Positions 15,929-59,744 of a stretch of 64,000 nucleotides of DNA are shown in pieces. Position 1 is the first letter of the stretch. Each line of letters opens with the position of its first letter. Source of the DNA: Leptospirillum sp. (lineage in GTDB: Bacteria > Nitrospirota > Leptospirillia > Leptospirillales > Leptospirillaceae); assembly GCA_027315205.1 (NCBI GenBank), contig DAHUYM010000001.1:124001-188000 (forward strand), given 5' to 3'. A program made the position numbers and the translations under genes. The notes beneath the pieces were generated by a model. It saw nothing but the letters and a program-made list of their open reading frames with translations. It searched no databases and had not been told where the DNA came from.

Positions 15929-15956
15929 TTGACAATCCAAGTCAAACCGATATGAT
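15929..15956 (+). promoter_or_regulatory. Promoter for the Ppx/GppA gene
   Basis: TTGACA at 15929-15934 and TATGAT at 15951-15956 are separated by 16 bases. The expected start near 15963 gives a leader of about 16 bases containing GGAGGGG before the ATG at 15979. It is the best consensus promoter in this part of the window. Confidence 0.7.
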
Positions 15957-15978
15957 GGTGGCAACCGGAGGGGTGTCC

Positions 15979-17532
15979 ATGGGGCTTGAAAAGATTGCCA
16001 TCATCGACATCGGATCCAATTCCATGCGGCTCGAAATTCTGGCTCGCCGCGGATCCGATTACTGGCTCGTCGAAAAGCAAAAGGAAACGGCCCGAATCTC
16101 TTCCGGGATGTACAATGAATACACAATCACGCCGCAGTCCCTCGAAAGAGCAAAATCCGCCCTTTCGAGCTTCGCTTCCCTGATCGCCTACCATCACGTA
16201 GACCATGTCCGTTGCGTTGCGACAAGCGCCGTTCGTGATGCCAAAAACCAGGCCCAGGTCATCGAATCCCTTTCTTCGCTTTTCCCTTACAAGATCGAGG
16301 TTCTTTCAGGGGACGACGAAGCCTTCTACAGTTTCTTCGGTGTCCGGAACAGCCTGATGTTGGCCGACGGGCTCGTCTTCGACGTCGGTGGCGGAAGCAC
16401 GGAATTGATCCGTGTCTCCGAAGGAAAGATGGAGTCGCTTTGCACACTACCCCTGGGTTCCGTCCGTCTTTCGGAAACGTTTTTCCGTAAAATCGGCTCA
16501 CCGACGATGTCCGAATGGAAGAAACTCGAAAAACACATTGAACGGATCCTATCCGAAGCACCAAACAACATTGTATTGCCAACGAATTGCACGATAGGCG
16601 TGGGAGGAACAGTCCGCCAACTGGCGCGCATTTCCCAGCGGTCTCTGAAATATCCCCTGTATCCGGCCGTCCATCAGTACACGATGGGGAAAAAAGAAGT
16701 CGAGAGAATCACAGCGCTAGTCCGTAATGCCACAGTATCCAACCGCGTGGAATCGATGGGCGTTCCGAAGGACCGGGCCGACATTCTTCCCGCCGGACTC
16801 CTGATCATTTCGAAAATCATGGACTACGTCAGAAGCGATACGCTGGTTGTTTCCCAGCAGGGACTAAGGTACGGACTGTTCATGGAGTATTGCCTGGGCG
16901 GACGGGACCGGATCATCGGCGACCTTTCGCGGGCGACTCTCCGGAGGATCGTCCGGAAGTACAGCCGATTTCGGGATTCCCGAATGCAGAGGAAACTTCT
17001 CCTGACCTTCGGGCTTTCCCTTTTTCCCGAAATATTTTCAGATCGCAGGGCGAGGACACTGCTCTATGCCCTTGGAACTCTGACCATCACTCCCTTGTAC
17101 TATCACCCGGTGACCGATACGGAAAATATCAGTTCGCTTTTCATGGAAGAGGACCTCCAGGGCTTCACCCATCAGGAAAGGATCCTGCTGGGTTTGAGCC
17201 TTATCCGGAGCCGGGAGCTCGTGGAGCAGGAGTTCAAGAAAAACCTGAAACCCTTTATAGACCTTCTTTCTTCCGAAGAAATGAAACGGGTCACCCTCTT
17301 CTCCCGACTCGCACGATTGACCCGGGAAGCCCTTCTTTTCACCCGGGGACGCATCCCGTCCGTCTCTTTCTCCGACCCACACCTCATGATCGCCGATCCG
17401 CCGGATGAGACCGAACACGGATATTCCGAATCCATCCTTGTAAAAACGGTCGAACGCGAGATCGGCAAGGGAAGACCGGTCGTTATTAAGTGGATGAAAA
17501 TTCACAAAAGGGAGGAAAGTGATGGCGCCTGA
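15979..17532 (+). CDS. Ppx/GppA-family phosphatase with C-terminal HD-type domain
   Basis: This 517-residue protein belongs to the exopolyphosphatase/guanosine pentaphosphatase family, which removes terminal phosphates from polyphosphate or pppGpp. The ASKHA phosphate loops are clear: IIDIGSNSMRLEI at the N-terminus and VFDVGGGSTELI near residue 136. The third segment CTIGVGGTVRQLA lies near residue 213. The last about 190 residues are helical, as in the HD-like domain of long Ppx proteins. The start at 15979 has GGAGGGG seven bases upstream; open frame above it covers the promoter. It runs convergently toward two kinase-like genes, 12 bases apart. Confidence 0.9.
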   Translation: MGLEKIAIIDIGSNSMRLEILARRGSDYWLVEKQKETARISSGMYNEYTITPQSLERAKSALSSFASLIAYHHVDHVRCVATSAVRDAKNQAQVIESLSSLFPYKIEVLSGDDEAFYSFFGVRNSLMLADGLVFDVGGGSTELIRVSEGKMESLCTLPLGSVRLSETFFRKIGSPTMSEWKKLEKHIERILSEAPNNIVLPTNCTIGVGGTVRQLARISQRSLKYPLYPAVHQYTMGKKEVERITALVRNATVSNRVESMGVPKDRADILPAGLLIISKIMDYVRSDTLVVSQQGLRYGLFMEYCLGGRDRIIGDLSRATLRRIVRKYSRFRDSRMQRKLLLTFGLSLFPEIFSDRRARTLLYALGTLTITPLYYHPVTDTENISSLFMEEDLQGFTHQERILLGLSLIRSRELVEQEFKKNLKPFIDLLSSEEMKRVTLFSRLARLTREALLFTRGRIPSVSFSDPHLMIADPPDETEHGYSESILVKTVEREIGKGRPVVIKWMKIHKREESDGA

Positions 17533-17544
17533 GGAAGAAGACGA

Positions 17545-18192
17545 TTACTGGATGACCGGATTTACGGCCCGTCGGATGACCTTCTGTGTTTCCTCCACCG
17601 GCCGGGAGCCGTCGAGCGTGAAAAAGCCCAACTCCTTCGCAAGCCCTTCGTACTCCGAAAGAACGCGCGACTGGAAAAGAATATAGGACTCCCTGGGATT
17701 GGGTGACAGTTCCATGTCCATTCCCGCTTCGTAATACTTGATGTCACGCATTTGCGTAATGCGCTCGAAGGCCATGGAAGGGTCGACGCGGAAGAAAAAC
17801 GTGAGGTCGGGCCGGATGGCGAACCGGAAATTGTTCATGAGCCATTCCCTGGGAATTCCCCGGGCGCAGTCACGGGCGATGGAGGTGTAGATATACCTGT
17901 CGGAAAGAACCACCTTTCCTGCGTTCAATGCGGGGATGATTTCGTGCGTGTACCGATAGCTGAAATCCGCCGCATGCAACAGACTGAATGCGTAAGGCGT
18001 CAAAATCTGCTTCTTCTTTGCCTTCCGAATGATGGGCGAAATTTCCTGGCTTGAATTCCAGGCGTTCCGGAGTACCCCGAAACCCTTGAGCCTCAGATAG
18101 TTTTCCAGAAGTTCTATCTGGGTCGATTTGCCCGATCCGTCGATCCCCTCCACCACAATGAGACGTCCTGGGTAGGAATGTCCCTCGTTCAT
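17545..18192 (-). CDS. Thymidylate-kinase-like P-loop protein, downstream copy
   Basis: The 215-residue protein has the P-loop GIDGSGKST (residues 16-24) and a DRY motif (98-100) as in thymidylate kinase. It lacks the dTMP-binding Arg-Glu-Pro-Gly-Gly motif: the equivalent stretch reads RNAWNSSQEI. A YYEAGMD motif at 153-159 is shared with its neighbour. It overlaps the upstream paralogue by ATGA, so the two are made together. True thymidylate kinase activity is doubtful given the missing motif; a nucleotide or phosphate-transfer role connected with the convergent Ppx/GppA is possible. Its stop lies 12 bases from that gene's end. Confidence 0.8.
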   Translation of the reverse strand: MNEGHSYPGRLIVVEGIDGSGKSTQIELLENYLRLKGFGVLRNAWNSSQEISPIIRKAKKKQILTPYAFSLLHAADFSYRYTHEIIPALNAGKVVLSDRYIYTSIARDCARGIPREWLMNNFRFAIRPDLTFFFRVDPSMAFERITQMRDIKYYEAGMDMELSPNPRESYILFQSRVLSEYEGLAKELGFFTLDGSRPVEETQKVIRRAVNPVIQ

Positions 18193-18872
18193 TTTCCTTT
18201 CCTCCTGGCCCGGTTCCTCAGGATCTGGGACAGGGTCTTCCGAAGTCCCTGCTGCTGGACCTGGATCGGCTTCATGGCGTCGACGATCTCGAATTCCTGC
18301 TCAATTGCCATCTGGCGATAGATCTCGATGAGGCGTTTCTGGTAAATGACGAAAGAATCTTTCTTCCTGTTGGCAAGGTTCAGGTCCATTCCGGCTTCAT
18401 AGTAGTCGAAATACCTTTCGTCCCGGGATTTCCACTGGATCCGGCTCAGAAGATCTTCGAAACGCACATCGAGATAGAACGTTCTCACAGGATTCAGGGC
18501 GAAACTGAACATGCGGGCGATCCAGTCTTTGTCGATTCCCCGGATGATCGCCCTGGCAAACACCGTATAGACGTACTGTTCCGCAATCACGACCTTACCT
18601 GCAGCAAGCGCCGGGATGATGACATGTTCGAAACGGTCCACGAAGTCCGCGGCATACAGAAAGCAGAACGTGACGGGATCGAGAGTGTTCCTCTCCTTCA
18701 GTTTCGAAATCGCTTCACGTATCAGGTCCGCCGTATTGCAGGGGGAGATGACAACCCCCTGACCCTTCGACTCGAAATACAGCTTGAGAAGTTCGGCCTG
18801 GGTGGTTTTTCCTGATCCGTCGGTGCCTTCAATGGCAATCAAAGTCCCTGGATATTGGGAGGTTTTTTCCAA
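18189..18872 (-). CDS. Thymidylate-kinase-like P-loop protein, upstream copy with altered DR motif
   Basis: This 227-residue paralogue aligns along its whole length with the next gene. It has a P-loop GTDGSGKTT (16-24), ALAAGKVV before the motif region, and YYEAGMD at 157-163. The essential Asp-Arg of thymidylate kinases is replaced: EQY at 98-100 instead of DRY. It also lacks the Arg-Glu-Pro-Gly-Gly motif. The C-terminus is strongly basic. The TTG start at 18872 has GGAG seven bases upstream. It may be a regulatory or divergent partner of the DRY-containing copy. Paralogy is seen directly; function is unknown. Confidence 0.8.
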   Translation of the reverse strand: MEKTSQYPGTLIAIEGTDGSGKTTQAELLKLYFESKGQGVVISPCNTADLIREAISKLKERNTLDPVTFCFLYAADFVDRFEHVIIPALAAGKVVIAEQYVYTVFARAIIRGIDKDWIARMFSFALNPVRTFYLDVRFEDLLSRIQWKSRDERYFDYYEAGMDLNLANRKKDSFVIYQKRLIEIYRQMAIEQEFEIVDAMKPIQVQQQGLRKTLSQILRNRARRKGK

Positions 18873-19004: not shown

Positions 19005-19529
19005 CTATCGCACCCGGAGACATCCCAATGTCGAGACATGCACTTTCAGGGGATTCTTCGAAATTTCGACCCCGTTCGAACTCCAGATCGAAAAATGGTA
19101 GGACTGGCAGGGTAGAAGGCCATGGACCCTGTAAATGTTCTTGGGCACATCAGCAAGGAGAGTTCCCTCGCGGTAAACCAGGTAATCCGTTGCCTGCTCG
19201 ACCCGGGTCCACTGAAAATAAAACCCGTCGCCCTCCTGAAAAGGGACGACATGAATGAACTTGGGAGGCGGAAGCGAAGAAAGACCGCTCCCTTTCGGAT
19301 TCTGTGCGGAAGGAGAAGATGTCTTGATGTCCGTATTCTTGACCGGTTTTTGCTCGCTTCCCGTTCCGTTCGAAAAGAGGCCTGCCAGCAACCCGTGCGG
19401 ATTGTTCCAGGCCGAGCAACCCCCCGAAAGGCTTCCAAAGACAAGGGCGAACAGAAAACCCTCCCCTAGCCCAATGACTCTTTTTTTAATTATTTTATAA
19501 TTACTTAGATACGACCTGAAATTTGACAA
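19005..19529 (-). CDS. Lipoprotein with fibronectin-III-like domain
   Basis: The chosen TTG at 19529 has AGGAG nine bases upstream and gives 174 residues. A basic N-terminus (NYKIIKKR), a hydrophobic stretch and a lipobox-like SGGC near residue 38 mark a lipoprotein signal. A low-complexity Ser/Pro/Lys linker follows. The C-terminal about 85 residues have a beta pattern, including FYFQWTRVEQATDYLVYR and YHFSIWSSNG, like fibronectin type III domains found in extracellular binding proteins. Function unknown. It is divergent from rpiB; its start overlaps the -35 box of that promoter. The kinase-like pair lies 132 bases downstream. Confidence 0.65.
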   Translation of the reverse strand: MSNFRSYLSNYKIIKKRVIGLGEGFLFALVFGSLSGGCSAWNNPHGLLAGLFSNGTGSEQKPVKNTDIKTSSPSAQNPKGSGLSSLPPPKFIHVVPFQEGDGFYFQWTRVEQATDYLVYREGTLLADVPKNIYRVHGLLPCQSYHFSIWSSNGVEISKNPLKVHVSTLGCLRVR

Positions 19530-19551
19530 TCCGCCCGGCTCCTGACATAAT
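19523..19551 (+). promoter_or_regulatory. Promoter for rpiB-glyA-nrdR-priA
   Basis: TTGACA at 19523-19528 and CATAAT at 19546-19551 are 17 bases apart, near-consensus. Predicted start is near 19558, leaving a leader of about 48 bases before the rpiB ATG at 19606. The -35 box lies on top of the start codon of the divergent lipoprotein gene. Confidence 0.65.
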
Positions 19552-19605
19552 GAGTCATATCTTCTTGACCGAATGATCCGGATCAAACCTCTAGGGTAAA
19601 ACGTC

Positions 19606-20088
19606 ATGAACGAACCCCTTCCCACGCGTCTCGTCATGGGCTCCGACCACGCAGGTCTGGCACTGAAGGATTTTCTCCATGCCAATCTTGCGGATGCGGG
19701 TTATCAGATCACAGATGTCGGAACCCACTCACCAGAATCGGTCGACTACCCGGACTATGCCGCAAAGGTGGCCACCTCACTACACCCCGAGTCGGGAGAA
19801 GTGGGGATCCTCGTGTGCGGAACTGGCATCGGCGTCTGTATTGCGGCCAACAAGTTCCCGGGAATCAGGGCCGCCCTCATTTACAGCGAAGAGACGGCCC
19901 GACTCGCCCGACAACACAATGACGCGAACGTCATCTGCCTTGGTGGTCGCGTCGTACCGCCGAACGAAGCCCTCCAATGGGTTCGCATCTTTCTCAAAAG
20001 CCAGTTCGAAGGGGGACGCCATCAGCGAAGGGTCGACAAGATCTCTGCGCTTGATACCCCGGCCCGTGCGGCTACTTCTTCATCTTAA
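19606..20088 (+). CDS. rpiB: Ribose-5-phosphate isomerase B
   Basis: RpiB interconverts ribose 5-phosphate and ribulose 5-phosphate. The 160-residue protein opens with [12 protein letters not shown] (the Asp-His pair binds the sugar), has the nucleophilic Cys and anion hole in [17 protein letters not shown], and [16 protein letters not shown] typical of the LacAB/RpiB family. The tail beyond about residue 145 is poorly conserved. It is the first gene of a plus-strand group with glyA 26 bases downstream, a frequent rpiB-glyA pairing in bacteria. Confidence 0.94.
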
Positions 20089-56986: not shown

Positions 56987-57681
56987 GGAACTCCCGAACC
57001 CAGAAACCACCGGCCGATGTCGGAAAGTTCGCTTAATGTCACAGAATGTCCCACGTCATACTCCTTCCATTCTCCCTTCCACCCGGCCAGGTTCAGGGCC
57101 TTGTACGTGGCCTTTCCCAGAGGCAGGGGTATCACGGGATCCTCGACCCCGTGCGCCATCAGGAAACGGTTCGGGGGCGTTCCCTTTTGTCGAAGCGGAA
57201 TCGAATCCGGATCCGGGTCGTATGTCGACAGGGCGAGAACCCCTCCCAACGGGCTTTCGGACATGAGTGCGGCGTTTATGGCGACAAGCCCCCCCTGGGA
57301 AAAACCCGCGAGGAAGATCTTTTCTCCGGGAACGCCCCGGGACTTCTCAAAATCTACCCATTCCAGGAGGCGGCGCGCGGATTCGTTGATGCCGTCCCAA
57401 TCCGGATCGGTGCGCACTTCCGGCTGCCGGATATCATACCAGGCCCTCATCCGCATGCCACCATTGACGCCAACCGGCCGTTCGGGGGCATTCGGGAGAA
57501 GAAATTTCAGACGTCTGTCCCCTTCCAGACCAAAATAGGGGAGTGCGGGAATAAAATCGTGACCATCCGCCCCGAGTCCATGGATCAGGAAAACCGTCCC
57601 GGAAAAGGGCGCGGGGATGCTCCTCTCGAAACCGCCTTCGGGACCGAAAGGAAAAAGGGAGACAGGATCCGAGGCGTTCAA
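56983..57681 (-). CDS. Alpha/beta hydrolase, phospholipase/carboxylesterase family
   Basis: The 232-residue protein has an alpha/beta-hydrolase fold: [13 protein letters not shown] forms the oxyanion region, GFSQGG near residue 131 holds the nucleophile Ser, and the acid and base are likely the Asp in GVEDPVIPL and His in DVGHSV. The [14 protein letters not shown] region is typical of the acyl-protein-thioesterase/YpfH group. Substrate unknown. The TTG start overlaps the yyaL stop (TTGA), and def overlaps its end. Confidence 0.87.
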
Positions 57682-59744
57682 CGAAGTTCATCCGGACGGG
57701 TTCCTGAGCCGAGCTGCTCCAGGAGCGTTTCGATCCGGTCGGCGGGAGGGAGGCACGACCCTTCGCGGCAAACGTATGCCAGCGTCTTTGTGGGGAAGAA
57801 GGGTTTTTCCATCGCCTCGGGAAGAGGCCCGGCACAGTCGGACAAATCGATAATCATCGTGTCCCTTGACGTCGCCTCCCGCGCTTTCAGGCTCCATTCG
57901 GCCGCATCCGGACCGCCCAGGAGGATCACCGACGGAGAGAACAGGGCGCATTCCAGGGCGGCGATCAGGCTCGTATATCCTGACGCCTGCTCGAGTATCT
58001 GGGGATAGAAAAGACGAAGCGCGCGTTCGGCCGTGTCCAGGTAGGAAAGGTTTCCCGTGAGATGGGAAAGGCGGATCAATGCCAACGCCGCCACTCCGTT
58101 TCCGGAAGGGATCGCGCCGTCGTGACCGGTTTTGGGACGGTGGATCAACCGTTCGTGATGATGTCCGGTAAAATAGAACCCCCCCTGTTCGGAATCCGCG
58201 AATTCGTCCAGCATGGCATCGGCCAACTTTAGGGAAAACGAAAGATCCTCGGGTCTGAATCGGGCTTCCATCGAGGCCTGGAGCGCGGACAGAAGATAGG
58301 CGTAGTCGTCGAGATAGCCGGACAGCGGGGCTTTTCCATCCTTGATCACGGCTTTCAGGCGGTTTTCAGACCAGAGATGTTTCCGGATGAAATCGAGGGT
58401 CTCCTGGCCGGCCTTGATCCACTCGGGACGCGACATGAAAGATCCTGCGGCAATCAGTCCTCTTGCCGCCAAAGCGTTCCAGGACGTGAGGATCTTGTCG
58501 TCCAGCCCCGGACGCACTCTCTTCTCCCGGGCTTCCAGGAGTTTTCTCCGCGACGACGCGATCCTCTTCGCGATTTCTTCCTCAGGCAGGTGAATTTGCT
58601 CCGAAAGTCTCTCGAACGAAGGGGTCGCTCGGAACAGGTGCCAGTGACTCCCTTCGAAATTCGGAGGGCCCGACAATCCGAAGTATTCCGATGCGACCCG
58701 ATACTCCTCTTCGGTCAGGATCGCGCGGATGTCATCGGGGGTCCAGACATAAAAACGTCCTTCCTCGCCTTCCGAGTCCGCGTCCAGCGAAGAGAAAAAA
58801 CCCCCTTCGGGAGATCGCATCTCACGGAAGAGCCAGCCGATCAACTGTTCCGCAGCAGTGACGAAGGAGGGTTCCCGCGTTTCCCTGTAGAGTCCTGCCA
58901 GAACCTCGAGCAGAAGACCGTTGTCGTAAAGCATTTTCTCGAAGTGGGGAATCATCCACCTGTCGTCGACGCTGTACCGCGAGAAACCCCCTCCCACCTG
59001 GTCCCAAATCCCTCCGCACAGCATGCGGTAGATGGTCAGGCGAACCATTTCAAGAGCCGTCCTGTCCTTGTCCAGCCTGTACCTCCTGAGGCAGAACAGA
59101 AGATCGGTCGGGTGAGGAAACTTCGGCGCTCCGCTGAATCCACCGAATTCGGGGTCGAAACGGCTTTTCAGACTCTCGAGAAGGATTCGTATCGGCCTGT
59201 CGTCCAGAACGACCTCTCCCGTTGAAGCGGCAGGGTTCGTCTGTCCGAGGTAACGGAGGATGGGATGGTCCGCTCCTTCCAGAACATTTCGGTTCTCCCC
59301 ATAGAAATCATGGATCTGTTGAAGGACAGAAGCGAATCCCGGCAGGCCGAACCGTGGAACCCTGGGGAAATACGTTCCACCCGCAAACGGGACCTGATTG
59401 GAGGCAAGAAACATCGTGAGGGGCCAGCCGCCGTTTCTGCGTGTAATCACCGTATGGGCCGACTGGTAGATCTGGTCCAGATCCGGACGTTCTTCCCGAT
59501 CGACTTTCACGTTGACGAACGTGTCGTTCATCAGTTTGGCGATGTCGGCGTTCTCGAACGACTCATGGGCCATGACATGGCACCAGTGGCACGCGGCGTA
59601 TCCGATCGAAAGAAGGATCGGTTTTCCGGTCTTCCGGGCTTCGAGAAAAGCCTCTTCCCCCCAAGGGTACCAATCGACCGGATTATGGGCATGCTGGATA
59701 AGATATGGGCTTGTCTCGTGCATCAAACGGTTCGGCATTGTCAT
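57678..59744 (-). CDS. Thioredoxin-domain protein of the YyaL/DUF255 family
   Basis: The 688-residue protein begins with the DUF255 thioredoxin-like domain: [14 protein letters not shown] near residue 20 and the CxxC in ACHWCHVM near residue 50. A large helical, (alpha/alpha) barrel-like part follows, with [20 protein letters not shown] and [17 protein letters not shown] (N-acylglucosamine-epimerase-like fold). Animal homologues are named SPATA20. The biochemical role is not established. It leads the yyaL-esterase-def-fmt group; 150 bases without a gene separate it from the propeller gene upstream. Confidence 0.9.

Follow-up and report, generated by a model that had tools for sequence, protein, structure and literature searches.

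The window analysed here, a stretch of 64,000 nucleotides from a Leptospirillum genome of 2.0 Mb whose nearest relatives in open collections are mine-water Nitrospirae MAGs, encodes two overlapping genes that databases name dTMP kinase, and this raises the question of what substrate such a pair serves and why both copies are kept. The two genes (Table 1) are called here A, the upstream copy, and B, the downstream one. The original prediction described two translationally coupled genes with a P-loop in each, a common YYEAGMD motif, no REPGG motif, and DRY at residue 98 of the downstream copy where the upstream one reads EQY; all these points hold, GSGK lying at residue 19 of both products and YYEAGMD at residue 157 in A and 153 in B, and the Glu, Gly and Asp of the latter motif are near-invariant across both paralogues. 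Their paralogy, also foreseen, is confirmed by 40% identity over the full length (profile E 6e-94).

Table 1. Features of the gene pair and of its convergent neighbour (window positions)
Feature	Position	Strand	Evidence or remark
Gene B (alpha), 215 aa, predicted catalytic subunit	17545..18192	-	start inside end of gene A
Gene A (beta), 227 aa, TTG start, predicted non-catalytic partner	18189..18872	-	
ATGA overlap, alpha start on beta stop	18189..18192	-	sequence
Alpha P-loop GIDGSGKST	18121..18147	-	
Beta P-loop GTDGSGKTT, Lys retained	18801..18827	-	
Alpha Asp98-Arg99	17896..17901	-	sequence; DR in 115/115 alpha
Beta Glu98-Gln99 replacing Asp-Arg	18576..18581	-	sequence; EQ in 13/13 Leptospirillum-type family beta
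Alpha WNSS, at REPGG-loop site of dTMP kinases	18049..18060	-	
Beta CNTA, site equivalent to alpha WNSS	18729..18740	-	
Alpha YYEAGMD	17716..17736	-	
Beta YYEAGMD	18384..18404	-	
Ppx/GppA-family gene, exopolyphosphatase-like, convergent to pair, end 12 bases from alpha	15952..17532	+	PF02541 E 2e-50

Both products match PF02223 of Pfam (E 5e-26 for gene B, 2e-24 for gene A), and their scores of 102.8 and 88.6 against TIGR00041, the dTMP kinase model, both exceed its cut-off of 83.25. Since this equivalog accepts the window alpha and even the window beta, misannotation of such proteins as dTMP kinase is likely to be widespread; it also accepts the Sulfolobus alpha (L186, L189). The AF2 model of alpha (pLDDT 94) is closest to Sulfolobus tokodaii ST1543, with Z 29.7 over 206 residues, and that of beta (pLDDT 91) reaches Z 27 to the same protein. 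For the convergent Ppx/GppA-family gene, the match to TIGR03706 (E 1e-81) falls under the cut-off of that model. Just upstream of gene A, an open reading frame on the same strand (19005-19685) begins like a lipoprotein gene (GGCSAW) and may share the transcript of gene A.

The pairing expected by the original prediction recurs widely. The family is carried by 84 of the 396 genomes of the phylum, every one with two or more copies, which were neighbours wherever both were listed. A scan of GTDB species contigs gave at least 576 confirmed relatives, found in Gastranaerophilales and other Melainabacteria, Ktedonobacteria, Armatimonadota, Acidobacteria, Nitrospira, Binataceae, Verrucomicrobia, KSB1, Eremiobacter and Thaumarchaeota, and two adjacent copies were present in 78 of the 80 loci retained from it. 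A search of the thaumarchaeal phylum added more ammonia-oxidiser-like genomes and ten Sulfolobales genomes (assigned by operon and sequence), one of which encodes the ST1543 protein. Overall, an alpha and an adjacent beta occur at 113 of the 115 loci, which span about ten phyla; alpha comes first in 100 pairs and beta first in 13, all of the Leptospirillum-type family. A P-loop kinase pair was rightly recognised from the sequence, with the correction that it is no new, isolated pair, since it belongs to a large family that includes the Sulfolobus "dTMP kinase" ST1543.

In a mixture-model tree, the alpha/beta family is set apart from the TMKs with support 100/100, and 42 of 44 beta sequences, gene A included, fall in a single clade (98/96); B groups with alpha, and the ppx operon of Sulfolobales contains TMK-like orthologues of both window genes. 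FastTree placed the Sulfolobales beta outside the remaining beta, a position that we take as a long-branch error because the mixture-model tree returned them to the clade and a single clade of all beta was not rejected (AU p 0.32). We regard it as near certain that the pair is real and orthologous to two ancient paralogues. In two Armatimonadota loci (L079, L080), beta is highly divergent, with Asp-Leu for Asp-Arg in one of them, and its position in the tree is unsettled.

The genes found around the pair point to polyphosphate. In all ten Sulfolobales genomes, sixA, ppx, alpha and beta are consecutive, followed in eight by a CHAD-like gene (weak but consistent matches); an identical Sulfolobales cluster, including a "dTMP kinase" gene, was published in a study of CHAD proteins (PMC10892726), and CHAD domains are presented as polyphosphate binders in PMC6537752. 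Among 97 loci of many phyla, ppx lies near the pair in 42, sixA in 39, CHAD in 25 and any of the three in 51. Nitrospira have ppx-alpha-beta with sixA opposite, ppx, sixA and CHAD surround the pair in Thaumarchaeota, Binataceae and others, and PhoU adjoins the thaumarchaeal pairs. None of the ppx, sixA and CHAD neighbours was found at the Gastranaerophilales pairs (about 30 loci) or at some loci of the Leptospirillum-type family. Three minor observations concern these surroundings: the Gastranaerophilales pairs (e.g. L107:5153-6004), whose beta has both catalytic motifs, adjoin a gene for an HD-domain protein; in two Ktedonobacteria (L117, L085) the distance between PPK1 and the pair is about 3 and 11 kb, so that both can share a neighbourhood; and a YyaL/DUF255-type thioredoxin-domain gene of the window (57678-59744, minus strand) has a homologue beside Nitrospira pairs (L043:1454-5134), possibly by chance.

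The genome profile concerns the enzymes that make and use polyphosphate. Sulfolobales accumulate polyphosphate and possess Ppx without PPK1 or PPK2 (PMC7831078, PMC6864096); consistently, PPK2 was not found in any of our ten Sulfolobales genomes. PPK1 was not found in any of 21 genomes of the Leptospirillum-type family, which does possess Ppx and a PPK2 that uses polyphosphate. The PPK2 of the source genome is of the ADP-polyphosphate phosphotransferase type (NCBIfam) and is therefore considered a user, not a maker, of polyphosphate. Leptospirilla were credited with PPK2 and an exopolyphosphatase in a 2008 paper which stated that polyphosphate granules had not been reported in them (PMC2631029). 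Simple mutual exclusion of the pair and PPK1 was not seen across the phylum as a whole (odds ratio 1.8), and PPK1 accompanies the pair in 13 of 40 pair genomes of one sample and in 24 of 84 of the phylum sample. The informative pattern is the presence of PPK2 together with either maker: PPK1 or the pair occurs in 121 of 133 genomes with PPK2 versus 20 of 263 without it (396 phylum genomes, counts uncorrected for shared ancestry). This matches what is predicted of a PPK1 substitute, with a P value inflated by shared ancestry. In the phylum sample the pair is the only candidate maker in 45 PPK2 genomes, and 17 pair genomes are without PPK2.

Most of the original prediction, a P-loop kinase pair in which one subunit is regulatory and which acts on something other than dTMP, finds support, and the neighbourhood indicates polyphosphate as the substrate. 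We consider it highly probable that the pair is a polyphosphate phosphotransferase, in one direction or the other, and likely, with rather less confidence, that it is a heteromeric polyphosphate kinase with a non-catalytic beta that makes polyphosphate; the reaction, its direction, the heterodimer and the role of beta are what we infer. In such an enzyme, alpha would bind the nucleotide through its P-loop and Asp-Arg motif and move phosphate between ATP/ADP and a polyphosphate chain sitting at the site that holds dTMP in TMKs; beta may help by dimerising, by holding polyphosphate or by regulating alpha, and the pair would supply Ppx and PPK2 (ADP-polyphosphate phosphotransferase) with polyphosphate in place of the absent PPK1. 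Points against a polyphosphate kinase are the Gastranaerophilales, which are without ppx, sixA and CHAD neighbours and whose beta has Lys and Asp-Arg, the missing neighbours at some Leptospirillum-type loci, the presence of PPK1 in some pair genomes, the 17 pair genomes without PPK2 and the lack of sequence similarity to PPK2 beyond the P-loop. PPK1-less organisms with polyphosphate-related genes include Sulfolobales, ammonia-oxidising archaea, Leptospirillum-type iron oxidisers, part of Nitrospira and gut Melainabacteria, and for these the pair, presently under a dTMP kinase name, is a concrete candidate polyphosphate maker. The chances appear evenly balanced for the broader proposal that many PPK1-less organisms make their polyphosphate mainly by a two-subunit kinase with an active alpha and a pseudokinase beta, which goes under the dTMP kinase name in about ten phyla of bacteria and archaea and whose beta was inactivated repeatedly (by Lys to Arg, by Asp-Arg to Glu-Gln and by Asp-Arg to Asp-Gly).

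The same neighbourhood would also suit a polyphosphate-linked nucleotide kinase, in which polyphosphate (or ATP) phosphorylates a nucleoside mono- or diphosphate other than dTMP and polyphosphate is consumed, not made. The TMK fold and the intact nucleotide site of alpha agree with this, and the kinetics of PPK2 favour the consuming direction (PMC4748334); however, in genomes with PPK2 the pair and PPK1, the maker, come out of the profile as alternatives, and Sulfolobales have no other known maker, so that we judge this reading unlikely. A kinase with a regulatory or signalling function in phosphate metabolism, whose alpha would phosphorylate a protein (for example one dephosphorylated by SixA) or a small molecule with beta as its regulator, and whose substrate would not be polyphosphate, appears improbable: the frequency of the SixA-type histidine phosphatase and the thaumarchaeal PhoU are in its favour, but Ppx is at least as frequent near the pair, polyphosphate-binding CHAD genes recur, and the sequence suggests no acceptor.

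A further reading is a second dTMP kinase, a duplicated tmk with relaxed motifs and a correct annotation. The TIGR00041 scores and the deposition of ST1543 as dTMP kinase favour it, and canonical Tmk resembles the pair in its fold, in the P-loop of both genes and in the Asp-Arg of alpha only. However, while Lys22 of the P-loop, Asp98, Arg99 and WNSS are present in 115 of 115 alpha, the residues of canonical Tmk at the positions which we take to be its dTMP-phosphate and thymine-reading sites are replaced: E45-P46 of the REPGG loop by W45-N46 of WNSS, R77 by F77, H80 by R80 and Y107-Q108 by R107-D108. All 22 TMK controls have EP, R77, H80 and YQ; WN and RD occur in all 115 alpha. Furthermore, canonical Tmk differs in that the pair is obligate and coexists with a separate tmk. 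On another contig of the source genome lies a canonical tmk (REPGG, DRF), as the original prediction anticipated, with a holB-like gene behind it, and a third, canonical TMK was present in 18 of the 18 other pair genomes checked. The pair is almost certainly not a dTMP kinase, in agreement with the proposal of another substrate, and a plain dTMP kinase duplicate was rejected on the basis of the pocket residues, the separate clade and the canonical tmk in every genome checked; with the polyphosphate neighbours added, the chance that the annotation is correct is very slight.

Among known systems, ST1543 of S. tokodaii (2PLR, 4NZY, 4RZX, 5H70) is the alpha orthologue, with about 45% identity and shared WNSS, DRY and EAG.D; it is archaeal and sits in a sixA-ppx-alpha-beta-CHAD operon. 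Unlike the Sulfolobales pair, that of the window is bacterial, begins with beta and is convergent to ppx, and its beta has Glu-Gln with an intact P-loop Lys, whereas the Sulfolobales beta has Asp-Gly with Lys or Arg. According to PMC11677633, Hofmann et al. 2024 (bioRxiv 10.1101/2024.08.28.610084), under a title that announces an archaeal family 3 polyphosphate kinase, characterised the polyphosphate synthase of Crenarchaeota in S. acidocaldarius; the 2026 version is J Biol Chem 302:111283, as cited in PMC13318637. As these sources present it, this Sulfolobales synthase belongs to a distinct family, and its best candidates appear to be the two TMK-like genes in the ppx operon of Sulfolobales, to which the window pair is orthologous. 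The window pair is probably the bacterial form of this Sulfolobus enzyme, the identity of the genes being our own assignment. If it is right, the window holds a rearranged version from bacteria, marked by a beta lesion of its own; if it is wrong, the Sulfolobales operon pair is itself an undescribed candidate.

PPK2 provides a second comparison. It has a TMK-like fold, and ST1543, the alpha orthologue, was the structure outside PPK2 that came closest to FtPPK2 (PMC4748334). Class II PPK2 such as PA3455 of P. aeruginosa shares with the pair the TMK-like P-loop fold and the combination of one inactive and one active domain, but these are fused in one chain of PF03976 (PMC8776046), whereas the pair consists of two proteins. 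Membership of the pair in PPK2 was rejected: PF03976 was not among the Pfam matches up to E 0.1, and hhalign gave a probability of 1% against the PPK2 of the source genome. No sequence similarity to PPK2 was found beyond the P-loop, and PPK2 chains were not among the 50 structural matches listed, an absence of little weight because TMKs fill that list.

Finally, the loss of catalytic residues affects one paralogue only. A lesion in the P-loop Lys or in Asp-Arg is present in 88 of 113 beta versus 0 of 115 alpha, which, together with the constant pairing (113/115), is the pattern of a pseudokinase subunit. Briefly, 63 beta have Arg for the P-loop Lys and retain DR, EQ replaces DR in 13 (Leptospirillum-type family), DG occurs with either Lys or Arg in 10 (Sulfolobales), and 2 have other lesions, P-loop Arg occurring in 70 of the 113 overall; the 25 that keep both motifs comprise 24 of a Gastranaerophilales-type clade and 1 of Armatimonadota. 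From these residues beta is predicted to be non-catalytic in most lineages, a P-loop Arg being usually, not always, inactivating. Purifying selection without decay is indicated for gene A by its dN of 0.12 in comparison with the related genome G003, about the 0.13 of gene B (dS saturated), and R107, R111, K59, W117 and R144 are conserved in beta, as mostly is E.G.D. These retained residues and an evolution as slow as that of alpha suit a subunit with a structural or regulatory role and some remaining capacity for binding. Of the originally proposed regulatory subunit, the catalytic-site damage thus stands, in one paralogue and by different changes in several lineages, and regulation is one role that beta may play. 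That beta is a decaying duplicate without a role, as the 88 lesions might suggest, is hardly credible given its place beside alpha in about ten phyla, its low dN and its conserved residues. The lesion states require at least three changes on the tree, and this repeated decay of beta is a natural experiment for studying how pseudokinase partners take over.
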